Origin: Xestospongia bergquistia
Taxonomy: Eukaryota > Porifera > Demospongiae > Haplosclerida > Petrosiidae
Direction: 5' to 3'
Assembly (NCBI GenBank): GCA_963965975.1
Contig: OZ014411.1
Coordinates: forward strand, 26,646,249 to 26,710,248
DNA length: 64,000 nucleotides
In this document: positions 314-64,000 of the stretch, one piece after another
Layout of the letters: each line of letters starts with the position of its first letter
Position numbering within the stretch: position 1 is the first letter of the stretch
Notes under the pieces: model-generated
What the model was told of the DNA's origin: nothing
The model's input: only the letters and a program-made list of their open reading frames with translations
Database searches by the model: none
Made by a program: the position numbers and the translations under genes

Positions 314-412
314 AACCAATGGACTCCTCTCCATGAAGCAGCTTTTAATGGTCAATCAACAGTTATACCAGCCTTGATAGAGGCTGGTGCTGATCCAAAC
401 TCAATTAATATG
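314..412 (+). CDS. Gene A ankyrin-repeat exon (copy 1 of a triplicated exon)
   Basis: A 99-bp phase 0-0 exon encoding exactly one 33-residue ankyrin repeat with TPLH, AA and GADPN hallmarks. It is bounded by TTTAG and GTAAGT. The flanking introns are nearly identical to those around 41018-41116 and 49412-49510, yet the exon differs from these by 14 and 9 bases respectively, with most changes altering the protein. Confidence 0.85.
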
Positions 413-3400
413 GTAAGTGTTAGATAGTAATGAATACTGTTTTACTGGATTATATAATATTATATAAAACAGTTAATTAAGTAATAGATCAATATATTTA
501 GTTATTATAATCATGATGATTACTTTTGGTTTTACTCTAAATGCTTTGTATAAATTTGATAACTCCACCCTCTTCATGATTAAGTAATAACATGTACACT
601 TGACTATAGTACCTTCTCTTATATTGTGGAAAGTGTCTATTTATCTCTTTATGTATGAGAAATGTTTTAAAACATCATTCATTGAACATGGCCATGTACA
701 GGAAACATTTAGAAATGTTCTTAAAAAGCAGCTGTCAACAGCATCTGCATTTTAGTTATGCTTTTTAGAGGTACCTTATCAAGTTAAGAGTTAGAGAAAA
801 GGTTTTTTTGTGTGCATTAATTAGAAAGTACACTTGTTTTTGTTTGCCCCAAAAATTTGGAGTGTGTACTCCAACTCTTTGAACAACCTTAAAGTGACAT
901 GTCTTGATCTATCAGGTATTACTTTAACTATGAGCTCACCCATATAATCAGGTATTATTTAACCACAAAGTAAAATTTGCTACTTTGATACCTGTGTCAT
1001 TGGAAGAGTTGAAACTCTATTTGGGCTTAATAATCTTGATGAGTATTATACACCTACCATTGATTATTGGAAAATGTCCTTTTCTAAATTATTCTCCTGT
1101 TTGAGATCAAATCACTCGTGACTGTTTCTCTGTAATTAGTGATATCTATATATTTTTAATAAACTTCTCACTCTTCAATCCTTGTTAAAAGATGGTATTT
1201 ATGTGCCTGTTAGATCCCACAGGAAATTGGATTTCCTGAGACTTTAAATATAATGATGCTAGAGGCTTAGATATGAGAGAAGACAATGAGATGCTACAAT
1301 ATAAAATATCACTCAATTTAACTGTAGCATGGTAGCAGGACACAAAAGTTGTCACTGCTTGTGTTACCAATACCCAAACTTAAAAGTGCAAAGAATACTA
1401 AAAACAGGGAAAAGGTTACTGTGATGTGTCCAGAGACAATTGCCTTATACAACTGACGTGGTGTGTTTGGTATGAATTGGATAATTAACACCCTCTTTGC
1501 ATTGATCACTAATTAAATTCTGACAGAATGAGTTTAGTATATACATTCCCCAGGTGCTTCCTCTCTATAAGCGAAGGTGACATCAGACTAATCACTTATA
1601 TCACTCTAGACACAATATAAGCTGTGGTTTATCACTTAGTAATAGTGGTATTAATAAATATACTTATACTTCTGTAAAAAATACATGTTATGATTACAAT
1701 TACAGATTACAGTCTAGCAATGATATAGGTATTTACATTCAGCTGCAAATATACAAGATGTAATCAGTATAATCACATGTCCTTTCATGCATCATTTCAT
1801 AAATAAACATCAACAGATGCTAAAACAAGCAACATGTACTTGTTTCATGTACTACTTACAAAGGCTACACTGTAATTGCTGTAATCACTTGTGATTACAG
1901 CAATTACTTTGTATGATTATAATTATGATTACTGATTACATTATTTCTGGAAAGTCGATTACGATTGAGATTACAGCAAAAAATGTAATTGATTGTAATT
2001 GATTATGATTGTATTCGGTCCCAACCCTGCTCAATAGAAAAGCCAGTAGTGAGTCTGTCTACAATGTTAGTTCTTAAAATGGCTACTTAAAGATGACCTA
2101 CTCACTTTCAAGTGACACAGAAACAATTATAGTATTCAGTTACTAAACAGTCAGAACTATTTTAATCATTCAATGTCGTATGCTTGAGCACACCATACTT
2201 TAATGTTGTTGAAATTTGGCCACAGGAAACATTTTTAAATGCTCTTAAAAGGCAGCATCTGCCTTTTAGTTTGCTGTTTAGAAAAATGCACTAAAACAAC
2301 AACAATAATTATGAGTTTCTATGTTTATCACTACATCTACTGATACACTTCAAACAATATGATAAATAAAATGTAGTACATAACAGACTTTTTCTTACAT
2401 CTTCAGTCAGTTTCTTTGAAATCATATGATATCTTTACATAGTAGATAACTTTCTCCACCAGGTATTGAGTCATATGATAAACTGTAAATGTGATCTACC
2501 TGTTATCACTCATTTACAATCCTCACTGTTGATGCAGTGTTGACAAAGCTATGGTACTATATAAGAGAAGATCATCTCTAAAGTAGTACATGCCCTTAAA
2601 ACTTGTTAAATAAAGGATAAAGATATAGGTACATGGGGATACCATAAATGGGTATGTGTCTGAATGTCATTTTTACACAGCTAAAGAGATAGTGACTAAG
2701 GAGGGACTAGGTGAGAGAGTAGTAAACGATCTGACCAGAAAGCTAGCAGGCAATAATTACAAGAACTATCACATTTACTGTGATATTTTTTACAAGCTTC
2801 TCACTCTTTCAATCCCTGTTAAAAGATGGTATTTATGCGCCTGTTAGATCCCACAGGAAAGGATTTCCTGAGAGTTTAAATATAATGTTGCTAGAGGCTT
2901 AGATGTTGTAACTTAGCTGAGGTATCACAACTATATATAAAAAGATAACCAACAATGAACTACAGACTATGAACAAAATACAACAATGACAATTGAGCAA
3001 ACAGACACACTATGTTGTATGGGTTCACACCACAAAATACATATTAATAAGGTCCAAAGTTCATCACATTCCTCCCCAACACTAAGGGGGCATAAAATCA
3101 ACAGGTCTGGAGTTCTGACAAGAATGATGTAACAGTTGAGCTTTCTGCTGTGATGCTGAGGTTGATGGTGCTGATAACACTTCAGGTTGATTAACAATAG
3201 GATCTGTAAGAAAACTAGAAAATAGTCAATCATCATAGTTATCAGGTTACTAACTATCTTGTTGACTGTCAGAGTCATGATGATACCTCAAATGATTGAT
3301 TTGATGGCAGAAGATATTACCCGATGGGTCTTGAACTTGATACAGCAATGGTCCTGCCACCTGAGTAACACCATACATGAATTAATACAGAATATAGATC

Positions 3401-6400
3401 TATAGATCCAATGATATGTTTCAACATTTCAATTGTAATATTGTTATCTCAACTGTTCATAACAAATAATTGCAGATATCTACATACCCTTTGTATACAG
3501 ACCATTCAGCATACTAACATATGTTGTTTCAGTATAACACTCTGTATAATACAAAAAAAATTCTGCATTTCACAGAATAAAGCTTAACACTAACCTGCAT
3601 ATTTCTAATTGACAATAATCATAATATTAATTAATGTCAGAAACATTTCAATATTAGAAGAGTAAAGAGTCATCAACATCAGAAGAGATATTTGAGTCCT
3701 CATAATGTTAGCTCCTACATCAGGAATAATATTTCCATTATTAGGGATATCACTTATATCATGGATATCCACATCGTCATTTAAAGATATAGGTGTCTGA
3801 ATGTCTTTCAAAAATGGCTTGGGACAATTGCTTGGAGGTGGGTGTTTAGAGGGTGAGGCTACAAGCCTTTCCTTTGATTTTATCCAAGGTGATTGCTTCT
3901 TTTGTTGGTGCCTTTCATCAAGCTTTCTCATAAATTTTGTTAAAGCTATAATATAGAATGTATCAATAATCAGTAAGTATGTTATTTACCTTCACTTCTC
4001 CAGGGTATAATGGATGAAGTGCTATAGCTCCATCTCTGTCATTTTCATCTGTCATGAAGTCAGCTGTAATAATCTCCCAAACTGACTTCTCCTTTTCAAA
4101 ATTAAAAATATTGACTACCAACACCAGTTACATTGCTTACTTGATGACGTCTACTACACTTTAATCTTTTTTTTCTTATTCTCATTTTACCACCTCCAAA
4201 GTTCTTCCAATGGAAGTACTCTCACGATCACTACGTTTACTTGACTCAAAATGATGATGAATAGCACCTATAATGTGAACTATTGGTAACTCTTGTATTG
4301 CTGGTGAATTTACTTACGATGGATCAGATGATCTTTATATTGAAATGATGAAAGTTCTGCTTTAATAGCATCAAAAATTGCTCTGTTTGTTTTGCTGTCA
4401 GCCCTATGGAAAGAAGCATAAACCATGCACACATACATGAGGACAAATGCTTACCATTCTGAAAAATTAAATGATTCATCAAGAGACGCATATCATGATT
4501 TCACCCTTTGCTGTATAACAAAGTATATTAAATATAACACTTGTGCTTTAAACTTTAAATATTTATAACAGCAGGTTAGATGTAAGTGCTTTTATACATA
4601 CAATTACTTTATGTTCATACCAATAATTCTATGAGGATTTTTTTGGATACCTTTTCTGCTCCACTTGAGCTACTCATGTTACTTCCAATGTCATCAATAA
4701 TATTTTCAATTGAAGAAAGTTTATCTCCTAACAACTTTATTGGAATGTTTTGGTCTTCTTGATATTTAGTGATCTTGGTGAGCTGCATTTCCCAACCAAA
4801 AATCTTCATTAATATGTTTTCTAAAAGTTGATCCTGTTGAGTAGTGTTTTCAGCTGTTTTGGTAGATCTAGAGCTAGATAGAAGACAGAATAATTGCTTG
4901 TGGATCTGATAGAACTCTAAATACTTTTGTCCAGATCTTTTTCTTGATGGTGTACTGCCAGTAACTGCTTCTACAATTATAGAAAAAGAGAAATCGTCCT
5001 GACACGCTGTCAATTATTTTCACGCCTACTAATCATTTTGCCACTATCTTCTAACCAACTAATCAGAGACATTGGACTCAACAAATAATAAATCTTTTTT
5101 TCACATTTAACAATAAAATCATCTTTGCTACTACATTCATCTAATGACAAATGTTCTGTTGAAGATGTTCCTTTTGTCATTCTTCTTCAGTTGTTTTTTC
5201 TGTAAATGCCTTTTTTATGTTCCTTTTACTTTCTTCTTTTATATTCAGGTGGTGAGATCCAATCTTTATAAAGATAAAATAATATGTAATATATCTAAAT
5301 TGGAACAAAGTTATGATTACAGCTAAATTACATGTCAAGAAATGTAATTAATTCCTCAGCTTTACACTGACTAATCTCATACACTTCTATTTGAAATAGG
5401 TATATGTTATCACTCATGTACAGAAAGTATATGGATGATATGTCAGTGATAAAGTCATGAGTCATAACCTATATAATTACATGAATATACACTAACTAAC
5501 ATAGTCATACATTATCACTCAGAAGGTACATGAGTATACATCAATTATAATTATACATCAGTCATGAGTCATCACCCATATAATTACATGAATATACAAT
5601 AACTAATATAGTCTAATGTCATCACCCACATAATTACATGGATGTACACAGGGTGTCATGCCATTTTGTCTAACAAAATGGACTTTTGTCCCATATTGTC
5701 TAATAGTGTCTAATAGTGTAAAAGGTCTAAGATAAGTGGATTAAGGCCAGTAAAGGTGATGGAATTCTAAAAAGGCTTTGATGTCTTTAAAGATAGAGTA
5801 CTTAAGAGGAGCCATTTCATACATATAACAAATTGAATCAATGGAGTTCAAGTTGTATATCCATCAAGCAAGTGATAGCAATTGCCTTTGTTCCCACAGC
5901 TTTTGTCAGGTTAGTTTGGAGTGGATTACAAAAGAATTCTCTAGACTTTAACAACAAGGAGAGTTTTGTTCATTACTTTGAAAGTACATGGATAGACGAC
6001 AACTTTCTTATTCGTTCATGGAATGTTTATACACAAGAGGGTCCTCGCACTAATAACAATGCTGAAGGATGGCATAGTAAAATGAAGAAACTTGCTGGGA
6101 ATTCACACACAAACATTTACGAGGCAGTCTGAACAAGCTGCAACAGAACTCAGTTTAATGCAGCTGGCTGCAGGAGGGCTTCCAAGAATACATAAACCAC
6201 GAGAACAGACTGAAAACTATTAAGGAAAAGCACGAAGCAGGAGATTATATGTTACAAGAACTTCTTAGGGCGTATAGCCATTGGGTATCTTTGTAATTAC
6301 AGTTATTTAAATCAATTTAGTTTTTAGACACAATGGGACAGCTGTACATTTTGTTAGATGAAATGGATATAAACTGTACACAAACTAACATAGTCTAATG

Positions 6401-9400
6401 TCATCATCATCCACATAATTACATGGATGTACACAAACTAACGTAGTCTAATGTCATCACCCACATAATTACATGGATATACACAAACTAACATAGTCTA
6501 ATGTCATCATCCACATAATTACATGGATGTACACAAACTAACATAGTCTAATGTCATCATCCACATCAGGCATGGGGTCAAATACATTGGAAAATACAAA
6601 TACTCTCAAAATATGAAATACAAATACAAATACAAATACTTCTAGCAGGAATGTATTTCAAATGCAAATACAAATACTTTGAAAAGTATTTAAATACTTT
6701 TCAAATACTTCTTTGTACTATCCAGAACATCTCCATTATTTGGTTTTACATGTAATCAACTATATAATCATTACATATTTTTGATTGCATCTAATAAACA
6801 GAAGTTCTTCAAATGTTTTGTCGGTTAGGCGACATTAATCCTATATCACAGACAGTGTACTTGTTGGTACTTATAGGTGTCCATAGATCTTACACATAAT
6901 TATGCAGAAGAAACAAACAATTTAAAAGGGACTATTTGAAGATTTCACGAAGTATTTGAAATACAAATACAAATACTTCCTGTTTCGAAAGTTCAAAATA
7001 CAAATACAAATACTCAAAAAAAGTATTTAAATACAGCTAAATACAAATACTCATGTATTTGACCCCATATAAGACATAGTCTTGTGATCACCCATATAAT
7101 TACATGGATATACACAAACTAACATAGTCTAATGTCATCATCCACATAATTACATGGATATACACAAACTAACATAGTCTAATGTCATCATCCACATAAT
7201 TACATGGATATACACAAACTAACATAGTCTAATGTCATCATCCACATAATTACATGGATATACACAAAGTAATATAGTCGTACATCATCACTCAGATGAG
7301 TATACTTCAGCATGAGCTAACAAAATAAGTCTACTACATAATTGGACATCTTTAATGGATACCAGTTAAACCAAAACAGACAATATTGATACAATAAACA
7401 AACAAACATGTACATTTCCTTTTAGGGCTATCATTTACAGATCAAAATGATAACTATATTTACCTTGTGGTTTGTGACCTGCAATCTGTGCACTTCTAAT
7501 CACATGAATCTTCAATTTCACTTTCAATAACGCCAAAAGAATCCACGTACAGTGTGTTGTAGAATATTGTACAACAATTCTGTATTCAAATCTGCATAAG
7601 ATTAGCTTACAAAGATATCGTTTATTATGCGGAGTCTGTATTTTGCTGAGTCTGTATATCGGACTGCATATGACTCATATCATGACTTTGGATAACATAG
7701 AATACAGCAATAGTTTGTGTAGTGACAGTCATGGAGATCCATTTAAGATTTCCCCTAAATCCACAAGCATACAGTCTATCTCCAACTTTAAATGTGCAAG
7801 CTCTGTCAAACAGTTTAATCATCTTGTCTTGGTTCTGAGACATCTTTTTAATAATATCAGGATGAATTAGATCAAATCAAGTACGAACTTTCCTTCCCAT
7901 CATCAGTTCAGAAGGTGATATCCCTGTACTTGTCTGAGGCATAATTTGATAGTTGGAGAGAAAGGTAGCAATTCTATCTTGTATACTACCCTCTAACTTA
8001 CTAATTCCCTGTTTAAAAGTTTGAACTGGACGCTCAGCCAACCCCATTGGAAGATGGGTGGGTACAGTGAAGTGAGGGTATGTCTGATTCCATTCTGCTC
8101 CATAAAACATTTGAATTCCTGGCTAGTAAAACCAGGGCCATCAGAGACAATTTGATCTGGGATTCCGTGTACAGCAAAGATTTCTTTTAGTTTCTTAATA
8201 GTTGTTCCAGATGATGTAGAATTAACAATATGAGCCTCTATCCATTTTGAACGAGCACTAATTAGAATAAATTTAGAAGTGGATGACGTCCAGCCTTGTT
8301 CATCAAGTTTACAGACCCCAGACAATAGTGGATCCCTATCTGTCCAAACTTTGCTGCATAAAAAAGTCCAAAGAAAACCAAAAACAGGGAAATGGTTACT
8401 GTGATATGTTCAGGGACAATAACCTTATACAATAAGTACATGGGTGGTGTTGATTGTAATGATCAACTCCATCAGTGCTATCACATTCATCTAAAATCAC
8501 ACAAACAATATTTTTACTTGATGTGGTTTTCTTCAATTTTGCTGTTACTGTACCAGGAAGCAAAGAAGTAGAAAGTCAACATCTCTTTCAACTAAAAAGT
8601 TCAGGCCAGCACATTTTCCTATGATGGGATATGGTAAAGGGTTCTTCCGTGTTCGCCTACTCTAGTTTTAACACAAAAGTACGGTTTTGCCTACGGATAC
8701 CGTAATTCTAATTAAACAAATATTGCGATTTTACAAATTACAATTCAAGAGCTACTGGATCAAAAACAATCTATAAGTTCCACTCTGATGCATGGAATGT
8801 TCCAGCTATCCATGTGGTTTCGAAATACATAACAAATTCATCGATTCTTGGTAACTCTGGAGTATCTGCTTTTATTCCTTGCCATGCAAGACGAACAAAA
8901 TGAATGGGAACAAAGGCAAGAGCTGCTGTTCTGCGTACAAATGACTTTAGTTGCTCCTTATTTTCTTTGTATTGGACTTGTAGACCAATCTCTTGAATTT
9001 TTCTCATAATTGCCTGGCAGAAATGATAATAACATCCTTGATATGTAGATGTTGGAAAAGTCAATTGTATTGCTTGTTTGATGGCAACGAGATTTAATTA
9101 AATTTTATGAATGTTAATTCAATGAAAAATTCAAAAACGTCTATTAATTAGAATTACGGTATCCGTAGGCAAAACCGTACTTTTGTGTTAAAATTAGAGT
9201 AGGCGAACCCGTACTAACTCATGGTAAACAATATCGTTATTATTATTATTTTATTGTTCACAATACAAACACATTTGTAAAGACACAAAATGGTATTGTG
9301 AAGGTTGTAATGTATATCTATGTGATAATGGCAAGACTGAAGACTGTTTTTATCCACCATAATCTCTGTGCCATCTTGTAGTGCTAACAAAACTTATGAC

Positions 9401-12400
9401 TTTCATTAAAAGACAACCTACACCAATCATTTAATATGAACTATAATAATGACAATGACAACTTATAGTACAATCAATGTTCAGTATTACAATATCAGTA
9501 CATACATGCACATAAAATGTATTATAACAAGCTTTTAATGTAACCGCTTATTTCTTATAGTAGGACATTATTATGAATGAAAAGGCACTCTAAACAAAGG
9601 TTAAACAGGTCTCACATACAAACATATGAATTAAATATTTTATATCTTGCTCACCAGTTACAAAGGGTTGATATACAGTCCAAATCTTCCCAGAAACATT
9701 CTTCTTTCCTTTGGACACCAATTTACAGTAATTTTAGAGTCAAAAACAGTCAAACAGCTCACAAAACACTCAAGAGAACGGCACGTTATTTAGCTTTAGT
9801 CCAATTTAATTTCGTCCTCGCATAATCACGCCCACGTATTAATATCCCATATAAAGAACTACTTTATTTATAGTATATACGTATTAATGTCTTTTTGTTA
9901 GTTATTTCTAATGGGCATTATCAATAAAGTCCGTATTTAATAATATTTCACTGATCATAGAACATTAGGTTTAGTGTTATTGGTTTAATTTAACCAGGTT
10001 TATGCTTTTATATAGTATACAGGAGTAATTGATCCTTGAAGTTAGGGTCCAATATAATGATAAATTGAAGTATTACAAAAACCCACTTAATTCAAATACA
10101 TTGATTGATATGGTCAATTATCAATTAAAACATGAAAAGGCTTTTATTAGGATTTTGATCATTTTATACTTTTTTTTATAAATATTGATTAATATTACAT
10201 TGAGTATAATTATCACTGGATACCTGTGTACCCTTGACACACCCTGGATCAGTCCTTAGTGATCGTAATCTCTCAGTATAGGTTTTGTAACAAGATGGAG
10301 ATCTCCATGGTATTTATAAACTGAGGGCTGATATCATGAGGTTTATAAATGCTATAGAAACCTTAAATTTGTTATAATTATAACTAACTGACTTCTGTTA
10401 AGTATCAACAGTATCATAGTAACTTGTTTATATAGCAATGCTAATACTATAAAAGATCTTACTGTATGAGACATAATAGAGCAATCTAATAAGACAACTG
10501 GTAATTGAAACTTTTAATGATTTGTGAATCTCAAGTAAATTTCTGTGACCCACTTATTACTGTCACCACCATAAGATAGAATTTGAAAGTAGAGTTATGT
10601 GGTTTGGTGAACTTAGTAACCACTTGGGCCCATTTTCTATATGACCTTTGGAATAACCAAACATGTTTTATGTATTTTTAGTATTGGTTTGGTGTTAAAG
10701 TTTTCTAAAAGGTTTAATACCACTAACAAGGCTTTCCAAGTTATGAAGTTTGTATTTATCATGTAAAAATCTTTTCATAGAGAGACCCCCAGACATTTTT
10801 GATTGTGTCAAGATCTGAGCTATAGCTAACAGGGGGAGTTTCCACAATACAACACCTTGTACTTGTAAATAATTCTTTCATTTGTACCAGCAAGATTTGT
10901 TTGTCTTGCTTGGCAGTATATAACAGAATATTCCATGATTGACAAGTTTGTCTCATATTTTGAGAGATCATAGTTAGTAGGGAATTTCCCTATAGATGGA
11001 TGTTTACAACACAGATGGTCCAAGAACAAGCAATCATGTTGAAGGATGGCATAGTTGTCTTAAGTGTGTTGTTAAGAAAGTACATTCTAACATTTACAAT
11101 GTGTTGAGGTATTCCAAAAGGAACACGCTGCAACTGAATTCTCATTACTTCAAAGTCAGTAGGAGTGCCTCCACCTTGTTGTATGAAAAGGTCAATTCTT
11201 TGAGACTGTAAAGTTAATAAACTGAAAGAAAGGTTTACCAATAACATTATATGTTTGGCTGAATATGTTACAGACATGTCCATTTGTACAGATCTTTGAA
11301 TTAAACTTTACATATTATTATTATAATACTTACTAATGTACTATATATAATTATCAACTATTACTGTAAATAGCTAATTTCATTGTTAATTTTAGTTTGG
11401 AGAGCATCAAATAGAATAAGCTAATAGTAGATGAAACATACAAATTATGCTTTTAGTAGGTATAAATGGAGTAAGCAATCCTTCTAAGCAAGCTTTTACT
11501 GTTTAATTTTTGATTTATTAATTAATAAATTCAAAAATTACATGTATATCACAGATAAAGTGTTGTCATCAGTTCAATCTATCTGATATTTTATCTGTTT
11601 TCATCAATTAAAGTTACTGAAATATTGAGTCAGTTAGTAGTATTGGCAATCAAAGCCTGTAAGATTGACCATACCCTTATGAATAATTAATTTATTAATA
11701 AGAATATTTTGAGCCACAATGTCTTATAATCGTATCATTACTTCTTTGTTCCACTATCTCTACTTTAATTCTGATTGTTTAATACTTGTATATGAAGTTA
11801 GTAAATATCCTTTATAATGACAACATTATAAATACAAGTATTAGGTCATATTTTTACCATAACATGTACTTTACAAAATTACATATTTGTCTCATTTAAT
11901 ACTACATCAGTGCTTTAGTATTTGTTAGAGAATCACTTTATACACTCAAGACAATTGAACCAGATTATAGATGTAACTATTGTTAATAATGACTGTTCTT
12001 TTATTTCAATCTTGTTATATACTAGTATTATTTACTAACATATACAGTAATTGAGACTGTATTGTTAATTTTACTTCTCTTACATCCAGTACAATCAAAC
12101 TCCATTGCATCGGGCAGCATTTTATGGTCATCATGATATTGCTGATACTTTAATCAAAGCTGGAGCACATGTTGATGCTATTAATGAGGTCAGTATATAC
12201 TATAATGTAAACTTATTATAGTTATAAACTGGTTATTACACATACCTTCATATTTTAAAAAGTATATAATAGTTCATACTTTCTTGTTTGTTTTAAATGA
12301 CAAAAACATATACATATAAGTTATAATTTGATGATAATGATTATGATCAGAAAACATTCATATCCTGAAAAGTCAACCTTCATATCAATTTCCTTTCTAC

Positions 12401-15400
12401 TTAAATATATCCATCAGTATCTTTTATGACACTAGTAATATTATATTAACAAAATTAAACATGATAATAATGACAAATTACACTGGATAATGTCCCATTA
12501 CAAAAATCGCTATCTTTTATAAAATTCAATTCTCCACATTAATGCTAGATACATATACAATAGTTGTAGAATTAATCATTTTATATCACATGATATCTAT
12601 ATTTGTATGTCCATTGCCTTTGTTTATTCTTTTGTCTATATATGACAATTAAATATTATAATTAATGTAATAACTGCATACTTTAAATGGTGACATACAA
12701 TAGGAATCAATGACTTTAATTAATTGTGACCACAACTATAATGGATGTTACCTTCAAGTTTTGAAACTAGCTTTTTCCTGATCTATTAATTAAGTTTTAT
12801 TTCTAGCATTCTACTTTATAGTTACTCCAATTGTTTCATTTAATTATTTTTACAGTAGTCAGTATCTTCCAAACAATTATAGGACAATATTTCTTAATTA
12901 TAATCTTATTAGGTATGTGTTAATTAAATAACTGTGTTTGTTTGTTTTACATAACAACTAACAGCATTTAGTAAATTAAACTAAATACTTTAACTTCAGA
13001 TAGATTATGTCAGCCAATAAATTAAACTTGTCTCTACGTCAAGTGCTACAACAATAGATATGACTGACAATGATTTAAAACTTCTAGTACATAATATAAT
13101 TGATATAGTGGAATTTCCCTAAAATCTGAATTCAAAGGTTTTTAATTATTAATAAGTGCAACTTTATTTTAGCTTAACTTTTAAATAAAAGATACATCTG
13201 TAATCAGGACACTTTAAACTGGTCCCAATTTATTTGTCTAGATAAGAAAAGTTTCATTTTAAATATTTTATTATAGCAAGACCTCTCCAAGGGGACACTC
13301 CAGTCTGAAATTTGGATACTCATACTATTTTGTACATTTGTTTAGACCCTAGACTCATAATAACTACTACAATAGTAACTGATCCTATGAAATACACCCC
13401 CACTGTTACATAATTCATAGGCGGAGAAAGCAAAAAATACATGGGGGGGTCAAATCATTTTGCTTTTCAACTACCCACCCAACTATGAAATTTTGTTGTT
13501 ACCATCAAAATGTTTATGCATATGTATACCCTTATTCGAAGTAAATTAATTGTAAACACAGGTATAGTTATGTTGATTAAAATATGCCAAAATGTATCAA
13601 AAAAATCTGGGGCATGGCCCCCTGGCCCCCATGCTTCCTCTGCCTATGCATAATTAGGACAGTTTGATAACATAATCATTATGTACCTCGTTTAATCCAT
13701 ACTGTTTGTGTGGCCATTTCAGTATGATTATTATGATTAGTTTTATACAACATGTACTTTCCTTTTTTATGAACACCTCTGAAATTGATACCCATGCTAT
13801 TCAGAATTGTTTTGACCCCAGATAGATAATAACTATGGCCATAGTAATGAATACCTTGAAATACAACAAGTAATGTCCCCCCTCCCATTTAATCCAATGT
13901 AAAAATTTCCATATGAACAATTGCATTTCACATAATTAGTTGACCTTCCAGTGAATGCTCTCTTCTTTTTGTATAGTTCAATTTCATGTATAATAAATAT
14001 ACAAGCTATGAATATCAGTAATGATAAACATTTCTTGTCCCACAAAAGCATTTTGCTAAATTGTTTTGCAACTGATTCTATTTAAGTGTATTACTAGAAA
14101 TATTGCATTAGATGTGAGGTTAAGAGGTAAATACAGCATGAGACAAAGACTGTTGCTGTGTTAGTCTTGAGATGCCATCCATATTGGTTTGCCTTTTTAG
14201 CTAGAAGATTTTGGCACACTTTTTTTGCAAAAAGTTCATATTGCCATCCAGTGCTATTAGAATCTACACACAATATTGTTTAAACATATACTTACAGCCT
14301 GTCCCTATACTCTGAATTTGCATGCATAAGTTTAATCCTAATTTGGAGAGGCTTTGGAATTAAATATATTTGATTCACCCTGAATATAATATTTGCACTA
14401 GTTTTAACTGGTTTAGTGTATAGAATACCAAAAGTCAGTTAAGCACTAATAAAATGTTATATAAGCAGGTGGACTCAAATTAGGTTTAATGTAAACTGTA
14501 AAGAGGATGTAGTAGAAATTATTCCAAAGCAAAGATGATTTGCGTGTGGTTTGTGAAAAATTTAAAATCACACTATAAAACAAGTAATCATCAATTCCTC
14601 TGATCTTCTAACTAAAGAATTTACTAAAATACAGTTGTTGTATATTGATTCAGAGCACTTTGAGTTAAATCAACATTATAGAACAGTTAGCTAATAACAC
14701 AATATCTATAGACATTGAATTCATCTTGCTTATATTTGACTCATCAAAATACAACACAGACTCATCCAATATCAATAGATATTAGATATTTATCCATCTA
14801 ATAGTTTATATTAATGTTGTTAATTATTTAGGGAAATAATACTCCTTTACATCTAGCTGCTCATGAAGGTCATACAGACACAGCTATCATTTTAATACGA
14901 TATGGTGCTTCCCTTAATGCTATTAATAAGGTATATTATTAGTGTTCTTTTTAAAGATGTTGAGTTAACAATTAGTGTGTGTAGTTTCAATGATTACTTT
15001 GTTAATTTCACATCATCTATTCCATGTCACCTTTAACTGTAATATCATCATATCAAATAATAATGTATATAAAAATAACTAGAAAAATATTGAAAATAAT
15101 TAATCATACTATATTCTCCTCAATACAACTGGATATTGGTTTTATCCTTCTTGTATTAGGCTTATTCTTCAGACTTATCGAAATATAGTATACATATCCA
15201 ATATTCAGCCATACATATATTAGATAATTATCAATCTAATTATGTATATAATTATTATATTGATTTTCCTTGTGAATCATATTTTGTTAGTCTAGAAGGT
15301 TCGTGGATTCCTTAGATTGTGCCCTCACATATATCTGTGTTTTAGGTCCATCTTCTCAGTAGTCTACTTTGGTAGTTTTTGTTTAGTGTATTGATACTGA

Positions 15401-18400
15401 GTATATTATATGTATTACATTATTTTAAGTGTCTGTGTAATTGTTAAGAGTAAAGTATTAAACATCAGACTTTATAATATGTGTACACATTTTATTGTCT
15501 TTGCTAGGACAATAAAACTCCACTTGATCTGGCAAGAAAAAATAATCATCATCGTTTAGTTGAGAAGATTAAAACTGATGAAAGTATGTGTACAATGTAC
15601 AAATTTTTTTTAATAAAATATGTAATTATTGGTATTGTCCAATGTAGAACAATTAAATCTTTAGTAATAGTATACAAACAGTTTTATTATGCCATACTAG
15701 CTAGTATAATATATAAATGTCAATATTACTGATATTATTAGGTCAGAATGAATGAAGGAAGCTGATAATTAAATTATGTTCACAAGATTAGTAGTCTAAG
15801 ACTGCAGTAGCTCAAATAGCATTATTTTTATGGTGTATCACACATCCTAGTTTCTAGTGTGGTTTGTTTCATTTCCATATTATCAAGTCAATTCTATTGC
15901 TGTAGTGGCTTTAGAAATAGCTAAGCTATCTCTGTTACACATGTAGTTAATGAATTTACATGTAGCTATATGATAGTTGATATGAATATATAGTACTATT
16001 GGATACCAGCAGTTATTGACAGCTATAGTATCAAAATGACTGAGAAAATGTTGTAAACACTTCTTATTTCTCTAGTCTTACTTTATTAACATCTTAATAT
16101 TTACTTTATAAAAACACTTTCTTCCTTTCTCTATAGAATTACTTCAAGTTTTCAAACATGGCATCCACAATGGCATTGTTAGACTCACAAACATGAGACT
16201 GGTTTTATTAGGACCACCTTGTGTTGGTAAAACATCATTCAAATCATTATTATTCAGCTGGCCTGCACCTCAATTTCACCATAGTACTGCATTAGCAACA
16301 AGACCAATTCGTGCTATTGAGAGAGTAGCTGGGCATAATGAAGGCAAAATCTGGGAGAAGATTAGTGGTCTTGATCTGTTAAAGATGCTTTCAGATGCTG
16401 TTCATGCACTTGAAGAAGAGCCAATCACAGAAGAGTCAAGACCTCATATACCAGTAAGTGCCAGTAATACTTTCTTATTAATTGATCACTTCTTTTAGCC
16501 TACTAGTGATGATTCCATGAACAGTCAGAAATCTAGTGAAGAAAACCAACCTCTTGAACAAATTCATTTTTCTATGGATGAGATGACTAGTCCTTCAAGT
16601 GATATTTCTTTTTCCTCTAAGAGTACTGGAAGTCCTGTTGTTCCTATTACTATCACAGGTAAAGATACATCACCTTCTAAGCCAAAGGCTAGTACTCGCC
16701 ACTATTCTAAAGAGATGATAGATATACTCGAAGAGAGAAGCACTTCAGAAGGTCTTCATCAAGCCACGTGGATAAATATTTTAGATAGTGGTGGTCAACC
16801 TCAATTTGCTGATGTGTCGCGTGCATTCATTCGTGGTAATACCATGAATATAATATGCACAAAGTTAACCGAAAGTCTTTCTGATAAGCCTGAGTTTAGT
16901 TATTCATTAAATGGTAAATTGCTTAATCTACCAAGTGAGCTACAGATGACCAACCTACAACTTATAGAGCATTTTGTGCGCTCAATAGTTGCTTCTAAGA
17001 ATGCTGTTGTTGTACAAGGAAACAAGCGTTTACCATTGATCATGATTGTTGGCACTTACCATGACAAGATAAAGGGTTTTACATTTAAATCCTTTGAATC
17101 ATTACGTCTAAAGAACGAACAGCTTCTATCTACTCTTCATGAGTTTCGGGATCACTTCATTTTCTACAACAATGATCCACAACAGCTTATATTTCCTGTT
17201 GATAATCTTTGTTGGTGGAGTCGTAAGAAGATGTCGTCCTTTTTTCGTGAATGTATCATGTCCTGTCAAAAGGACATAGGTATCACTGTCCCTATACCTG
17301 TACGTTGGTATATGTTTGAAATGAGTTTGAAAGAAGAAGCATCACAACAGGATCATGGCATGGTCTCATTGGATTCCTGTTGTAGTATTGGAGTTAACTT
17401 TAACATGAATCAAGATGATGTCCTTAAGTCTATTACTTACCTACATTCCATGGCCTTATTTCTATATTTTCCAGTAGTTCTTCCTAATATAATTTTCACT
17501 AATCCTCAGTATCTTCTTGATATGCTTTCAGTTTTGATAAGTGTTTCATTTGTCGAGTCATTAGGAGATATTTTACAAGAGGGTCAGTCTTTATTACCAG
17601 ACACTCTGAAAACGTTTCGTAATAAAGGAGTGTTTGATGATTCATTTCTTGATAAGCTTTGCCTTCCTTTTGTTTCTGAATTATTTACAAAAACTGAACT
17701 TCTAAAGTTACTACAACATCTTTGTATTATTGCTCCTCTTTCCACCAGTGATTCTTTAAATCATTTTTTCATGCCAGTTGTACTACCACCTAATCAAGTG
17801 ACGGAGAACATTGTAGCTGGGTTTACATCAGCATGTGATCCTATGATTATTGCCTTTGAGAGCAAAGTAGTACCTCAGGTAAGACATTAATGACAGTAGG
17901 TATTAATTTATATAGTAATGATCTTTGGAGATAATGTAATTATTTTCCTATTACACTATATAGGGTATATTTCCTGCTACTGTTGTAGCCCTTGTTAATC
18001 GTAAGGAGAAACCATGTTTTTTTATTGATAGTCATTCACCTACCTTCCCTGGCCAGTTGCGATTTGCTGTTTTACTTTATTCTGAAGATCTATTTGGCTC
18101 AGTACTACTTGTTGATCGATTTTATTGGATGGAGGTGTACTATAATGGTCTGACAGAGAATTGTTTTCAGCTTCGCAAAGTCATCTGTAAAGCAATTACA
18201 ACATCTGCAGAGATTCTGGCTTATGATGAAGGGGCAATAAATGCTGAAGTCACAGTGCCATGTTTACGAGAGCATCAACTAAGTGGTCACAAGTTACACC
18301 CGGTCATTCTATCAATGGACAAGAATCCTCCTGCTATCAGATGCAGCATTGAAAAGCAGCTACCAACAATTCTTTTAACAAATGAAAGACAAACCTGTTG

Positions 18401-19972: not shown

Positions 19973-21379
19973 TTTTTTTTTATTTTGTTAATTTTTAGGT
20001 TTTTATTATTAATGAGTGAATGAATATATTGTCTACTTATAAAAGTAAGGGGTAATTTAATTTTATACATTTTTAAATATTAAAAGTATTTTCTGTTATT
20101 TCTGAACATTATGTTAATTTCTTTACAATTTATTGTTTTGCTCTCTTTTGATTTTGATATTGTACTAACAAAGATATCATTATATTAAAGACTATTAATA
20201 ATACCTTAAAATATTTTGTGAAACTATTTTGTTGTTAACTGAATTGTGTTGTTGTTGTTTTTGTTATACCAAATTACAATAGTTTTAATTTTTAGTTTAT
20301 AATTAATTGAAGTACTTTCTCATTGTATTTTGTCCTTGCTATTTTATTTTAGTGATGATGTATGTATGCTGCAATGTTTTTGTTATTATAAATATTTTTA
20401 AATCCATTTTAAAGTTTACATACCACTTATATATCTTTTAGAGAATGTACTGAAAACATGTAGTCATCAAATATAATATATATACTCAAAGTCTTGTCCA
20501 GTATATTTTTACACTAGTAGTGATATATATAAATACATATATAGGAACAACATCATAGAATATCAAAGTACCAATATTTCAAATTCATAAACAATCCTTT
20601 CTCTACAAAGATGTGTTATAAGACCACAGACAAATGACTCATGTCATAAGATCATATGAAGCAATTGTATCATTATTCTAACATGTAGAATTGTATCATT
20701 TGATAGTAATTGTGATAGTATGATACTTCATACATATTAAACTATTACATGTCCTGATCTAATACATTTATTCAAATTACTTCTTTGGCTCTCTTGTAAT
20801 GGCAATCAATAAATAAAATAATTAATGATTTACCTGCATCATGAGCCTAGTACTGTGAGGATGGTCATGTATGTACATACACATACATACATGTTTTGTC
20901 TTCAAATATTGAAAGTATAGCTGACATATGGATACTCATGATGTTTCAGACTAGCAAATTTTTGCAATTGTCTTGTCACTTTTATCATTGTGACTGTCTC
21001 AAATTAGTGTTCACAAAAGCCAAGTTATCAGTGGCAGAGGGGTGATTAACTACTGTACTGTCTGTAATGACTTAAAACTGTTGAATTTTCTTAATAAGAC
21101 AACCTTCAAAGTTATTACAGATGTATTCTTACATTAAGGGAGTAGATATTTGGACATGAGATCATCTATAACTCAACCCCACCCCTTTTCCTTTTCTGCA
21201 AGGGTATCCAAGTAACTTAACATATGATGCTGCCTTGTAAATTAAAGTGTATGTATTAAAACTTTCAAATAAGATGAATTAATATTTATAGATATAATTT
21301 ATAATTAATATTTCCTCATGTATATTTATCAAGATATGTTGTCAGTACTTCCAAGCATTGAGTACTTGATCAATATTAT
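19973..21379. other. Convergent intergenic region, gene A and VPS18
   Basis: About 1.4 kb between the stop codons of two convergent genes. It is AT-rich, with ATTAAA near 20184 as a possible gene A poly(A) signal. No ORF, RNA gene or transposon is recognisable. Confidence 0.6.
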
Positions 21380-24300: not shown

Positions 24301-24726
24301 CCCATCATCGCCCACTAACCCTTACCTCTGGTATCCTAGATTCATGGGATATTTATGGCCAATGTCATTTCATCATTTATTTTACTAACATTACATTATC
24401 ATTAGGGGAATGTACTAACACTATGTACATTAACTTATGTTACATGTACTCAGTTAACTTAAGTTCAACCTAATGATATATTTTAATAGACACATATATT
24501 GTAATATAATTGTACCTGTTCTTTTAACACAGTTTGGTTAGTATCTCCTGGTTGATTACATTGGATAAGAGCTGGTATGAGACGTTTAGGATCAAGAAGT
24601 CTATCTGCTTCTATCCATGCATCAACAGTAGAATTAGGTATGTACTTAACAAATACTGGAGAGAATTTATAATATAAACCAGCAAACTTTTGAAAACGAA
24701 GTTTACGTTCATTCTGAAAGAAGAGA

Positions 24727-24821
<95 letters not shown>

Positions 24822-44738: not shown

Positions 44739-44788
<50 letters not shown>

Positions 44789-47700: not shown

Positions 47701-50227
47701 TTTCATTAACTATGTAATATTATATAACTGTGGTTTGTAATCATTACATATTAATTAAACATCAAATTAGATAATGTCTATGGATCCCATACATACATGT
47801 ACAATCCCTCATGTATCAGTTACAGGATGTCATGTGTATTATGTCTTCCATAGATACAATACATCCATTGAAGTAGTTAAACCACTAGGGACATCTTGTA
47901 TAAGTAATTATACCACAGGATACATAATGGAATGTATATGTGTATTATGTCATTAATGGACACAATGTATCAATTGAAGTAGTTAAATCACTGAGGACAC
48001 TTGGTATAAGTAATTATACCACAAGATACATGATAAAATGTATATGTATATCAAGTTATCTATGAATCTATGGAAATAGCTATACCACTAGGTACATGTT
48101 GAAATAGGTTACATGAAAGATAGAAACCGCGTGTGTACCATGTCATCCATGGACAATTTGGAAGCAGCTATATCATGATGGGATGCCACATGTTTATGAA
48201 ACGTGTGTATACAATGACATGTGTAATTCATATCTAATTCATACAAGACTTGGAGTATGTTAGGTTTATATATGTAGTGTAACCACATATAAGTCTAACA
48301 TTTAAAATATACAGTTACCTCCTTAGTCATGTTATGTTTACTATTATTATAGACTATATATGTTTAACAATTTAAAATTTAGATAACATATCTATAATTA
48401 TCTTTTAGTGATGATTATTAACCCTCTCCAGTCACTGAGTAGGCAAGAGTTATAGTACTTGCCTTGTGTGTATGTGTGTCTGTTCCAAAAGCACAGACAA
48501 TATGGCAGAGGTTATCATTTCTAAATGTTACTATGTGTATATTATGTAATTTTCTACATTTTAAATGTGGGAATTTTCCTTAAAATGATTCATTCTCAAA
48601 TAATGGCAATTTGCTTACCTGGTTCTGATGTGATGTTTGTGTCCACTCCTACTTGAGGAATAATAACATATGTTAAACACTTGTTACAAATACCTTATAT
48701 CTTAGTAAAAAGAGTCTTAAGAACTGTCACAACTTTGTTGATGTCACACTCATCATTATAGGGAAACATTGCCACACCTATAGTTTTTGAAATACATCAT
48801 TATAATTATAATCAAAATGTTCTCAGTACCAATATGACAAATTAATATTTCTATAATTTAGCTACTACTGCAGTGAGGGTTCTGTACTTTAGTTCTTTTT
48901 ATTAGTCTAGAAATGACAAGTTTACAATTCCTTTTTTCCACATAATTATTAGAAAAATAAATTATTAATACAGTCCAGTTCAATCTAGTCCACTGTTAAC
49001 ATACTCTCTACATATTAGTAGTATACTATATTAACAATAAGATATAATCATATACTGAAGTATTAATACATAGTAGCTCTATAGTTATATTTTATGTAAA
49101 CATAAATAAACCAGTTAATTGTTAGTTATAATTGAACTGAATACTGTGTTAAATCTAAGATCATCTCTATAAACTCTTATATAGTCACATTGTCTCAGAT
49201 ATAGTTCAGTTAATATTATATATTAAGTAATGTACTATCATAATATATCTTGTATTAAGTATTAATGTATTGTTCTTATGTTATCAACATAACTTTATAG
49301 TCTCAGTTATGATATCACATTAGCTATATGATTAATGGATTATTGTCATGTGTGTAATATAGTAGTAATTGAGTATTAAGTAAATAACATTATCTTCTAT
49401 TATTAATTTAGAGCCAATGGACTCCTCTACATGTAGCAGCTTTTAATGGTCAATCAACTGTTATACCAGCCTTGATAAAGGCTGGTGCTGATCCAAACTC
49501 AACTGATAATGTAAGTGTTAGATAGTAATGAATACTGTTTTACTGGATTATATAATATTATATAAAACAGTTAATTAAGTAATAGATCAATATATAATTA
49601 GTTATTATAATCATGATGATTACTTTTGGTTTTACTCTAAATGCTTTGTATAAATTTGATAACTCCACCCTCTTCATGATTAAGTAATAACATGCACACT
49701 TGACTATAGTACCTTCTCTTGTATTGTGGAAAGTGTCTATTTATCTCTTTATGTTTTAAAACATCATTCATTGAACATGGCCATGTACAGGAAACAGTTT
49801 GAAATGCTCTTAAAAAGCAGCTGTCAACAGCATCTGCATTTTAGTTATGCTTTTTAAAGGTATCTTATCAAGTCAAGAGTTAGAGAAAAGGTTTCTCTGT
49901 TTGTCCCAAATTTGGAGGGTGTACTGCAACTCTTTGAACAGATAATGTTTACATATTGATTCCCATAAATAAAAATATTGTAGTATAATTTTGACCACCA
50001 CATCTGTTTGTACCAACCATAATGATGTGATAATTGTCTCAAATTATAAAGATTGTGACATTGATAATCATTAATAATCATTAATATATGATTTGTGTGC
50101 ATTAATTAGAATAATGGAAATGATGGCCTCAATAGCTTCGATGTTATCCTGCAAGGAATAAAATAAAATAAAAAATGTTTACTAATGTCGACATACTTTA
50201 ATACATACATACATATATACATATATA

Positions 50228-50275
<48 letters not shown>

Positions 50276-59200: not shown

Positions 59201-59716
59201 TTAATTCATTAATAAGATTTTGAGCTGTAATTTTCACAATGTCTTATAATCCTATCATTACTTCTTTGTTCCACTATATCTACTTTAATTCTGATTGTTT
59301 AATACTTGTATATGAAGTTAGTAAATATCCTTTATAATGACAACATTATAAATACAAATATTAGGTCATATTTTTACCATAACATGTACTTTACAAAATT
59401 ACATATTTGTCTCATTTAATACTACATCAGTGCTTTAGTATTTGTTAGGGAATAACTTTATACACTCAAGACATTTGAACCAGATTATAGATGTAACTAT
59501 TGTTAATAATGACTGTTCTTTTATTTCAATTTACTCTTGTTATATACTAGTATTGTTTACTAACATATATATATAGTAATTGAGACTGTATTGTTAATTT
59601 AACTCTCTTACATCCAGGACAATAATACTCCATTGCATAATGCAGCAATTCGGGGTCATCATGAAAGTGCTGATACTTTACTTAAATCTGGAGCACATGT
59701 TGATGCTATTAATAAG
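36509..59716 (+). CDS. Gene B: ankyrin-repeat paralogue of gene A (3' partial)
   Basis: Exons seen: 36509-36529 (MSSKDKL), 37353-37451, 41018-41116, 49412-49510, 59618-59716. All introns are phase 0 and each later exon is 99 bp, one ankyrin repeat. The first repeat (ELWWAAYEGDVNGVSNFLRR, then GADPNYHN) is the N-cap. Order and sequence of the other repeats match gene A, so GTPase and Death-domain exons are expected past the window end; this is inference. The gene is stretched by introns of up to about 10 kb filled with transposon remains. A Ty3/gypsy element starts at 60963 in the next intron. As a start, the ATG at 36509 is the first after the acceptor and gives an N-terminus without other repeats before it. 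Confidence 0.75.
36753..36860. repeat. Dispersed ~100-bp repeat with flanking duplication
   Basis: A block starting GTACTTAACAGAAGTACTTA is flanked by the direct repeat ATGTAATTACATTTAG (near 36737 and 36860). Most of it recurs at 37709-37807 with a few base differences. It looks like a small inserted element, class unknown. Confidence 0.6.
37353..37451 (+). CDS. Gene B first ankyrin exon (N-cap)
   Basis: 99 bp, phase 0-0, encoding NVELWWAAYEGDVNGVSNFL and RRGADPNYHNPQH. The TPLH motif is replaced by ELWWAA, as in N-terminal capping repeats. A matching exon for gene A would be upstream of the window. Confidence 0.8.
37499..37522. repeat. (AC)n microsatellite
   Basis: About eleven AC units in a gene B intron, shortly after the first ankyrin exon. 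Confidence 0.9.
39211..39331. repeat. Direct repeat containing ACCATGGT palindromes
   Basis: The word TGTATCCATGTACATTACCA followed by TGGTAACCAT occurs twice, about 90 bp apart (39211 and 39300), and includes the palindrome ACCATGGT. Confidence 0.7.
39774..40550. repeat. Duplicated intronic block, copy a (with 106-bp internal repeats)
   Basis: Nearly identical to 47768-48542. Inside it, segments starting at 39842, 39948, 40054 and about 40141 are degenerate tandem copies of a roughly 106-bp unit beginning GTGTATTATGTC. Each block lies 0.5-0.9 kb upstream of a duplicated ankyrin exon (41018 and 49412), so they mark a tandem duplication of about 8 kb. Confidence 0.85.
41018..41116 (+). CDS. 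Gene B ankyrin exon (copy 3)
   Basis: 99 bp, phase 0-0. Codons 11, 12 and 14 differ from the sister exons in a cluster (FNGQ replaced by GLGK), with further changes at positions 3, 8 and 31-33, whereas 255 bp of upstream intron differ from copy 1 by one base and from copy 2 by none that I can see. Confidence 0.85.
42096..42564. mobile_element. hAT-like MITE (copy 3, intact)
   Basis: Starts TAGGGTTGGGGTCAATTAC and ends GTAATCGGTCCCAACCCTG (imperfect inverted repeats), flanked by CTCAATAG (42088-42095) and CTTAATAG (42565-42572). An 8-bp target duplication and CAGGG-type ends fit hAT. The interior is full of GATTACA/TGTAATC words. No coding. Confidence 0.75.
43601..43938 (-). CDS. Small unknown protein with one frameshift
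   Basis: The minus strand from ATG 43938 reads MAEDITTPDLLVIQGTPVTQ and a helical stretch to KFKLIEFY. A one-base shift near 43750 then continues as EYNQYHFNKGVHVEETFLEL and ends IKKCQ-stop at 43601, about 112 residues. Without the shift the frame ends in an unrelated tail (43678). It is hydrophilic, with no signal or membrane segment. It lies in the gene B intron next to the transposon-like pair 44458-46590; a link is only positional. Function not recognised. Confidence 0.4.
44458..45807 (-). pseudogene. Unknown multi-exon gene, repeated family (divergent member)
   Basis: Exons 45531-45807, 45257-45354, 44857-44966 and 44458-44667 on the minus strand. Products: a coiled-coil stretch (TELLTAVITQIDLQKTEIAI), LLKEVKALNVEFSTEDISG, a basic VIRRRRHERKTR segment, then TMSSEDIDKENDEG and VLKPLSWRSSEFEKLLNIID with stop. 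The acidic MS-x-E motif, the W-R-S segment and a final LD/ID helix parallel the gene at 3605-4970. A frameshift in the first exon near 45690 suggests decay. It is divergent to the reading frame starting at 45883. Family not identified; possibly the accessory gene of a mobile element. Confidence 0.5.
44742..44784. repeat. (TA)n microsatellite
   Basis: About twenty TA units inside an intron of the minus-strand unknown gene. Confidence 0.9.
45883..46590 (+). pseudogene. Unknown transposon-associated protein relic, frameshifted
   Basis: The first frame (45883-46170) reads LPRAYTLEVLDDRHSLYLQT. A shift near 46170 continues as SAALNGKCFLATG, VALAHWDIAGFGPFPTSLY, ICSWYLPHSKVGKCCKPVQL-type wording (CSWYLPHSKVGKCCKPVQLW) and FEHPDYYCFIPI. 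The W-x-x-H, GKP-V-x-W and FIP-x-x-I pattern resembles a C-terminal domain I associate with repetitive proteins in sponges and cnidarians, but I cannot name it. It is head-to-head with 44458-45807, only about 75 bp apart. Confidence 0.45.
46591..47767. other. Gene B intron, little recognisable
   Basis: Mostly AT-rich sequence. One imperfect hairpin-like word at 47640-47683 (CCAGACCCTTTGC with AGGAAGAGTCTGG) may be a tiny MITE end; related wording is at 36060-36090. No genes. Confidence 0.5.
47768..48542. repeat. Duplicated intronic block, copy b
   Basis: Near-identical partner of 39774-40550, including its degenerate 106-bp internal repeats. It marks the second unit of the ankyrin-exon tandem duplication. 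Confidence 0.85.
49412..49510 (+). CDS. Gene B ankyrin exon (copy 2)
   Basis: 99 bp, phase 0-0, encoding SQWTPLHVAAFNGQ and IKAGADPNSTDN. It differs from the 314-412 exon at nine bases (six residue changes: positions 1, 8, 23, 31, 32, 33) and from the 41018-41116 exon at thirteen bases (eight residue changes). Confidence 0.85.
50227..50280. repeat. (GCGT)n microsatellite
   Basis: About twelve tetranucleotide units. The paralogous position in copy 3 (about 41,770-41,805) is a TATA-type tract, so it expanded locally. It has by far the highest CpG density in this AT-rich window. Confidence 0.95.
50312..50496. mobile_element. MITE with 8-bp target duplication and empty site
   Basis: 185 bp with inverted ends GGGTGGTTCTTGGTGTAACT and AGTTACACCAAGAAGGACCC, flanked by TACATTTC (50304-50311 and 50497-50504). 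Copy 3 near 41,828 has a single TACATTTC and no insert. The interior holds TGATGTCATCA-type palindromes. Class probably hAT-like or MULE-like by duplication length. Confidence 0.85.
50883..51358. mobile_element. hAT-like MITE (copy 2, intact)
   Basis: The same element as 42096-42564, with flanks CTCAATAG (50875-50882) and CTTAATAG (51359-51366). The right flank still reads CTCAATAG in copy 1, which shows the original perfect duplication. Confidence 0.75.
51979..52229 (+). pseudogene. piggyBac transposase fragment (copy 2)
   Basis: Same broken GLGERVV...RKGFP stretch as 2656-2903, with the same frameshifts. It was already dead before the duplication. Confidence 0.75.
52230..52394 (-). mobile_element. 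LTR of the Ty3/gypsy relic (copy 2)
   Basis: Duplicate of 2904-3068, with TG...CA ends on the minus strand and the same purine tract beside it. The integrase tail follows at about 52600-52695. Confidence 0.6.
52600..52695 (-). pseudogene. Ty3/gypsy integrase C-terminal tail (copy 2)
   Basis: Duplicate of 3270-3370 with a few substitutions. It is separated from its integrase core (55386-56345) by the same nested insertion. Confidence 0.6.
52931..54324 (-). CDS. Unknown multi-exon gene, repeated family (copy 2)
   Basis: Duplicate of the 3605-4970 gene with the same exon plan: coiled-coil exon ending about 54324, and a last exon about 52931-53274. Two points are better preserved than in copy 1. 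The exon near 53380-53450 still has a longer KYVEKKEKSVWE segment, and the LEVVNENKKK junction near 53540 lacks one of the breaking bases. A long A-run still makes one reading frame doubtful. Function not recognised. Confidence 0.5.
54880..55030. repeat. 50-bp minisatellite, short version
   Basis: Two to three units of the array seen at 5430-7290, with no transposons inside. It is the reference for the empty sites of the elements at 5651 and 6572. Confidence 0.8.
55386..56345 (-). pseudogene. Ty3/gypsy integrase relic (copy 2, more complete)
   Basis: Minus-strand frames give ELAPYFNRQQELIVLD, then a zinc-binding remnant (LHEAHPSTSKMKSLPRC, WWPGL), PWEWPHRPWSRLHIDHAGPH (first catalytic D), RSKWIEAHIV, and the later GLAERPVQTFK and KVGDRLYA parts. 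An in-frame stop, frameshifts and substitutions inactivate it. About 350 bp here are missing from copy 1, so this copy better shows the ancestral state. Confidence 0.8.
58440..58724 (+). pseudogene. MULE transposase C-terminal relic (copy 2)
   Basis: Duplicate of 10930-11215: DGPRTNNHIEGWHSCLKCVV and HPNIYNVLRYS. A 4-bp tandem addition (GATAGATG) just before the DGPRT motif and a stop in the preceding segment show independent decay. Confidence 0.7.
59618..59716 (+). CDS. Gene B ankyrin exon (duplicate of 12090-12188)
   Basis: 99 bp, phase 0-0, encoding DNNTPLHNAAIRGHHES and ADTLLKSGAHVDAINK. Ten of 33 residues differ from the gene A sister exon, at positions 1, 3, 8, 11, 12, 16, 17, 22, 24 and 33. 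Confidence 0.85.
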
Positions 59717-62343: not shown

Positions 62344-62509
62344 ACCTGTATACTCTGGCTAATAAAGGATCTTTCTGTGTCCACTCTTTTACAGTTTCAG
62401 CCATGATTGGCATTGTGTCCATGGCTTCCATTAACTTCACTAATTCGGTTGGTACTGGTTCTTCTACCTCTACATTCTCAGTAGGAAGTTGACTCAATGT
62501 GTCTTATGA

Positions 62510-63987: not shown

Positions 63988-64000
63988 TGATGCACCAAAT

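Follow-up and report, generated by a model that had tools for sequence, protein, structure and literature searches.

The window analysed here is a stretch of 64,000 nucleotides from the sponge Xestospongia bergquistia (assembly GCA_963965975.1, contig OZ014411.1, hereafter C1; C1:26,646,249-26,710,248), carrying on its forward strand exons for single ankyrin repeats, a predicted ROCO module (Roc then COR) and Death domains. In the assembly searched (146 Mb, 21 contigs), it appears to be part of a tandem ankyrin-ROCO(-Death) cluster of five units, G1-G5, at C1:26.45-26.72 Mb, with predicted gene limits; parts of G4 and G5 fall within the window. The assembly has Wnt matches at three places, against none in any of 14 control genomes, which marks it as animal; a search for innexin gave no match, a result made uninformative by its own control. 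The ankyrin exons of this cluster diverge faster than their own introns, as the initial annotation had claimed, and codon models support positive selection at the residues predicted to face the ligand, against purifying selection on the ROCO modules of the same genes.

Exon A is present three times in the window: copy c1 of G4 (314..412; 33 residues, phase 0), copy c2, assigned to the upstream part of G5 (41018..41116), and copy c3 of G5 (49412..49510), preceded by near-identical introns at 57..313, 40761..41017 and 49155..49411, respectively. Exon B lies at 12090..12188 in G4 and at 59618..59716 in G5, and exon C at 14832..14930 in G4. Five window ankyrin exons were checked, and their coordinates, reading frame and splice sites agree with the initial annotation, all of them being 99 bp long, open in frame 0 and bordered by AG and GT. 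Exons A, B and C joined match the ankyrin family PF00023 (E=2e-27, three stretches), as does exon D of G5 (E=1.2e-10), and a possible degenerate C-terminal ankyrin cap is located at 15508..15567 (weak Pfam Ank match, E=0.064, below the cut-off). Exons and introns have been duplicated as one unit; the unit with exons A and B spans window 1..13415, with gaps, and has its copy at 49099-60945. Across the cluster, exon A and its introns occur as eight near-identical copies (C1:26.45-26.70 Mb, the three in the window included), one of them followed by a further partial repeat, while five copies of exon B and four of exon D were found. Exons A, B and C each encode one ankyrin repeat in phase 0 and measure 99 bp, with a single copy of 105 bp, an arrangement in which the gain or exchange of a repeat leaves the frame intact; exon D, of 184 bp, comprises a repeat plus a tail and is the exception to the one-repeat-one-exon rule. 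Exon C is shared with a compact paralogue on contig C12, and no near copy of it was found elsewhere in the cluster.

Downstream of the ankyrin exons of G4, the putative effector includes an open frame at 16112..16495, which holds a probable P-loop part of a Roc GTPase (GPPCVGKTS) and matches ROCO relatives. It continues through a Roc-COR part with a DSGGQ motif and fold matches to Roc-COR structures (16655..17887) and an open frame for the conserved C-terminal continuation of the module (17964..18413), and is followed by two Death domains (18955..19236 and 19679..19969), both above the Pfam PF00531 cut-off of 22.6 bits (29.0 and 24.6 bits). Past the window end, G5 continues with exon D, a ROCO module and a Death-like exon (L057, L058), the latter (L058:511-900) giving no Pfam match at E<=0.05 and no meaningful match in the PDB. 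We infer the identity of the effector from predicted fold: a structure model of 16655-17887, for which this stretch was aligned with 24 of 120 listed relatives (25 sequences in total), reached a mean pLDDT of 64.5 and a pTM of 0.49, and every one of its six PDB fold matches at E<=0.001 is a ROCO/LRRK1 chain (best 9.1e-6). Counting against this assignment, these matches have low TM-scores, of 0.29-0.34 on the query, and confidence in the model is middling. By sequence, the same stretch matched no Pfam family and its profile retrieved nothing convincing among PDB sequences. The P-loop stretch (16112-16492) matched no Pfam family at E<=0.01, and for its G5 counterpart (L057) the sole match, to a YobI-like P-loop ATPase family, has E=0.0034 and falls short of the cut-off. 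Among the 120 listed relatives, nine carry a precomputed COR (PF16095) and two a Roc (PF08477); in the two that were rescanned, P0049 and P0095, COR-A was matched at 5.9e-6 and 5.3e-7, and Roc in P0095 at 8.7e-6, all of these below the curated cut-offs.

Recounting reproduced the differences that the initial annotation had given for exons A and B. For the exon A pairs 1-2, 1-3 and 2-3, respectively, 14, 9 and 13 of the 99 bases and 8, 6 and 8 residues differ, with 1, 2 and 1 silent-only codons, against 1, 1 and 0 differences in the 255 bases upstream and 1, 0 and 1 in the 84 bases directly downstream; farther downstream there is a 2-base indel, with no more than three substitutions per 99 bases over the next 200 bases. 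The two window copies of exon B (12090 vs 59618) differ at 16 bases and 10 residues, with zero silent-only codons. Counted as minimum changes per site over the copies found in the cluster, the excess of exon over flanking intron goes beyond chance in all three classes: 33/99 vs 25/521 for exon A (P=1e-12; seven of the eight copies), 38/184 vs 19/403 for exon D (P=5e-8; four of four) and 29/99 vs 104/764 for exon B (P=5e-4; five of five), the intron count of exon B being inflated by the non-homologous tail of one copy. The 105-bp exon A copy, L016, is left out of this count and of the pairwise table. A second, older cluster lies on the opposite strand at C1:27.05-27.15 Mb; in its three copies with the closest introns (L020, L022 and L023), introns differ by 6-11% and the exon by 12-22%, and other, more diverged pairs do not all show an exon excess.

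The size of this excess has to be read with care beside exon A. Over the duplicated unit as a whole, the window copies differ by about 2 per 99 bases (counted by eye), so the 0-1 differences beside exon A represent a local low, and, these introns being unusually homogeneous, the raw exon/intron ratio makes the effect look larger than it is. The introns beside exon A stand at 0.16 of the silent rate of the exon, the corresponding ratio being 0.56 for exons B and D (P=0.013) and 1.0 in the second cluster. This low ratio beside exon A, and an intron divergence there under the 2% or so of the unit, are what would be expected if homogenisation of introns were the main event, frequent gene conversion keeping them alike while exons that are older and escape it drift under relaxed constraint, with no positive selection involved. 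We regard this account as quite unlikely as the principal explanation, for reasons that come from the coding sequence itself: in the second cluster introns match silent sites and the ligand-face positions still give a dN/dS well above 1, as detailed below.

Repeats were numbered by setting the T of TPLH to ankyrin position 6, and seven positions were preset, namely 2, 3, 5, 13, 14, 26 and 33, which we take to be those randomised in designed ankyrin repeat proteins (DARPins). In the designed repeat, as described in the passages of PMC6796971 and PMC8229355 drawn on here, six positions are randomised and one partly so, and targets bind them on the concave face. The most variable residues of the sponge exons are found at positions 2, 3, 5, 10, 13 and 14; positions 26 and 33 have changed once each. 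The initial annotation had placed most changes at ligand-contact positions, and this is borne out, the seven preset positions taking 38 of the 59 residue changes (permutation P=2e-4). Position 10, presumably on the same concave face, accounts for seven further changes of the 59. By exon, 6/7, 6/7 and 4/7 preset positions vary in A, B and D, respectively, against 6/26, 7/26 and 4/26 of the others.

Selection was evaluated with a codon model that took ROCO or introns as the clock. For G1-G3 its tree was a star with shared branch lengths; this comparison leaves out G4 and G5, which carry other ROCO types, no exon D having been found in G4. In G1-G3, the ratio of non-synonymous to silent rates (dN/dS) was 0.195 for ROCO (590 codons), 1.12 for the ankyrin framework plus tail (80 codons) and 9.3 at the preset positions (14 codons), and fixing the latter at 1 was rejected (twice the log-likelihood difference, 2dlnL, 22.4; P=2e-6). 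For exon A, fitted on six of the eight copies (without L016, and without L015, whose exon is identical to that of L013), the preset positions gave 10.8 (2dlnL 34.5) and the framework 0.81. A simplified refit with kappa and relative branch lengths fixed gave 10.4 (2dlnL 34.7), and in the simulation check, made for exon A only, none of 400 data sets generated at dN/dS=1 was as extreme, the largest reaching 12.7. In the second cluster, where three of seven copies were used, picked for their closely aligning introns, the preset positions gave 5.2 (P=0.007). Simple counts within G1-G3 point the same way: non-synonymous and silent changes (N:S) are 25:7 in exons B and D vs 18:34 in ROCO (Fisher P=1e-4), and silent sites of ROCO change 6.5 times more slowly than non-synonymous sites at the seven positions (P=9e-8).

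Several observations weigh against reading this as selection on residues. In exon A, divergence at silent sites exceeds that of the introns (the ratio of 0.16 given above, P=0.003), so such selection does not account for the whole of the exon excess. In the second cluster the framework is also above 1 (1.89), and the two classes of position differ at P=0.035. A crude N/S count gives 1.01 over the pooled 33-residue repeats of A, B and D, and at the seven positions 2.93 for A (P=0.10), 1.15 for B and 0.70 for D, 1.33 pooled (P=0.28). The model assumes a star tree, an assumption broken by recombination between copies, and codons are few, with seven preset positions per exon. All 17 cluster exons are open, which is weak evidence of function only (P=0.04). 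The crude count favours silent paths, and the codon model was trusted over it because codons hit more than once blind the crude count; a plain dN/dS from silent-only codons, with a crude N/S of about 1, was set aside as too weak. An N/S near 1 would also fit relaxed constraint following intron homogenisation. Relaxation alone cannot pass a dN/dS of 1, though, and the simulated data sets, the second cluster and the 6.5-fold excess over ROCO silent sites all tell against it. The suggestion of positive selection in the initial annotation is thus supported at the predicted ligand-face positions by the codon model, for exons A, B and D as well as for the second cluster, and finds no significant backing in the crude count.

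The initial annotation had offered conversion from other ankyrin exons as an alternative to selection, and exchange between copies does occur. In exon D, sharing switches between exon sites 17 and 33, from G1 with G3 and G2 with G5 to G2 with G3 and G1 with G5; the first three informative sites pair G1 with G3, and one later site has the third pattern. Such a site order has a chance probability of 0.008, or 0.017 if either end is allowed, taking sites as independent and omitting the odd site, and exon D can be read as a mosaic. In G2, the 105-bp exon A (L016) has an unrelated middle, i.e., a foreign block, and a genome search with this exon matched nothing beyond itself and three copies of exon A. 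Of the codons that differ between two copies, about a third are changed at more than one base (A 59/182, B 28/81, D 19/51). These features, together with the raised silent sites of exon A, would be accounted for if the variation had come in through the copying of short stretches of other ankyrin exons, confined to the exon since the donors share no homology with the introns, and selection only sorted the products. No living template was found for the three blocks tested, though: the hypervariable blocks of L010, L012 and L016 have no second exact place in the assembly, the nearest non-self places having 3/20, 2/20 and more than 3/26 mismatches, respectively. The search with the L012 block gave 16 other places, not screened for ankyrin frames, against 8 with the block reversed as a control, and a genome-wide search with a degenerate ankyrin-exon pattern yielded two places only and was uninformative. 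Moreover, in G1-G3 the ankyrin exons show no significant rise in silent rate over ROCO (ratio 1.29, P=0.58). Conversion was therefore upheld for the mosaic exon D and the L016 block and not as regards an exact donor; as the source of the variation at large we consider templated exchange possible, though not the probable answer.

An artefact of assembly or haplotypes, or the decay of pseudogene copies, could in principle imitate variable exons in constant introns, young segmental duplications being hard to assemble and a retroelement following exon B in G2, G3 and G5. This we hold to be very improbable: the 17 exons are open, with AG/GT borders in the sequences seen, the changes respect codons and positions of the fold, the copies carry different flanking insertions, and the ROCO modules of G1-G3 are under purifying selection.

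The effector parts have also been rearranged within the cluster. In G1, G2, G3 and G5, exon D is followed by the ROCO module, and in G4 exon C and another ROCO module take this place. The G1-G3 modules are close to one another (silent differences 5-6.5%), that of G5 is about 75% identical to them although the exon D regions are 94-97% identical, and that of G4 is 86% identical to the C12 gene. Three ROCO types thus stand behind closely related ankyrin exons, and therefore ankyrin and effector parts have recombined. A shared-effector arrangement, in which many variable exons would be spliced to one ROCO in a Dscam-like manner, was considered and set aside as less likely, as ROCO modules follow the exons of G1-G3 and of G5. 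Genome-wide, two DNA searches gave at least 80 distinct candidate places of ROCO-like modules, counting the best 40 of 94 and the best 40 of 167 candidates. The C12 paralogue (C12:3199976-3206865; L019, L038, L042 and L059) is compact, with exons A, B and C plus ROCO in about 7 kb, is 86% identical to the window gene over exon C and ROCO, and is a candidate for an older form of the gene. More runs of ROCO-like modules are located at C11:6.37-6.47 Mb, C2:12.9-14.9 Mb and C12:3.2-5.5 Mb.

Taken together, we consider it probable that, in this tandem ankyrin-ROCO(-Death) cluster, ankyrin exons are under strong diversifying selection on the concave ligand face while ROCO is held. Recent duplication and homogenising exchange would keep the introns alike, and selection would keep the exon variants apart; the mosaic exon D and the three ROCO types show, in part, that exon pieces and entire ROCO modules have passed between copies. 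As judged from domain make-up and selection, the products may be receptors with an immune role: the ankyrin solenoid would bind a changing partner of microbial, viral or allogeneic origin, binding would switch the Roc GTPase, and the Death domains would recruit a cell-death or inflammatory pathway. A more far-reaching proposal, which we put forward tentatively, is that the germline of an early-branching animal encodes here a large set of ankyrin-ROCO-Death receptors. Single-repeat exons would serve as interchangeable binding cassettes, diversified at the residues randomised in DARPins and swapped between ROCO effector modules, possibly in individual-specific or spliced combinations for allorecognition or virus sensing.

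The closest known design is that of the LRR-ROCO genes (LRR, leucine-rich repeat) of the brown algae Ectocarpus and Saccharina (PMC11378527, which cites the 2012 report of Zambounis et al.), the sponge genes being an animal variant with ankyrin repeats. As far as the passages of PMC11378527 used here describe them, both are expanded families of proposed immune receptors that have a ROCO GTPase and repeats each occupying one exon of constant phase, with shuffling of exons and with residues of the concave face under diversifying selection. In the algae, on the other hand, the repeats are LRRs on 72-bp exons in phase 2, and LRR-ROC-COR is the only domain combination that the paper found in brown algae, whereas the sponge, an animal, has ankyrin repeats on 99-bp exons in phase 0 and adds Death domains; near-identical introns around divergent exons, seen here, are not described for the algal genes in the passages used. 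Since the repeats are ankyrin and not LRR, the sponge system would work like the algal ROCO receptors without being a member of that family. It may be viewed as an animal counterpart of them, ankyrin replacing LRR in a repeat-per-exon ROCO receptor, and two distant lineages may therefore share one design.

Among animal proteins, the conserved gene DAPK1 encodes ankyrin repeats, Roc-COR and a Death domain in one protein, plus a kinase. The sponge genes resemble it and other animal ROCO proteins in combining the first three, and are unlike it in that their ankyrin exons diversify and in the kinase of DAPK1, a domain that was not looked for in the cluster. Homogenised introns with exon variation maintained by selection are also known from the major histocompatibility complex class I, an unrelated protein in which the variation is allelic and not, as here, paralogous. 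Short segments that change radically, within fast-evolving coding parts, recall the accelerated segment switch in exons of snake-venom toxins (PMC2711939); those toxins are secreted, whereas a putative intracellular receptor with one repeat per exon is proposed here. Large lineage-specific families of putative immune genes include the expanded NLR family of zebrafish and the TRADD-N family of the sponge Amphimedon (PMC4852459 and PMC8195603, respectively), the latter set also joining Death-like domains to ankyrin or LRR repeats, although they are built on NACHT or TRADD-N and not on ROCO. Among the open-licence papers listed, no report of sponge ankyrin-ROCO genes or of ankyrin exon diversification was found. 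The strong, position-specific signal indicates a defined face for binding tests and a putative receptor class with directly searchable ligands, and bears on self/non-self discrimination in animals without antibodies.

Other elements were observed in and around the cluster. Pieces of a Ty3-like retroelement (parts of reverse transcriptase, RNase H and integrase) occupy window 61444-63999 on the minus strand (L055, L056); of the four units read past exon B, such an element is found at the colinear place in G2, G3 and G5 and not in G4, whose homology to the other units stops at window 13415. Between exons B and D of G5, a frame for a MULE-type transposase (L057:2327-3379, minus strand) matches the ZSWIM1-3 RNase H-like family PF21056 at E=1.1e-36, and a frame resembling this type is also seen in L055. 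Ankyrin matches at C14:0.6-5.6 Mb and C3:9.3-9.4 Mb fall in very long open frames, the longest of 2968 codons, and may represent a separate ankyrin family with few introns. Within the window, a 69-bp tandem repeat at 22747-23449 (about 10 copies, 96% alike) lies inside an open frame of 280 codons, and a pure (GA)45 microsatellite is found at 24729-24818.

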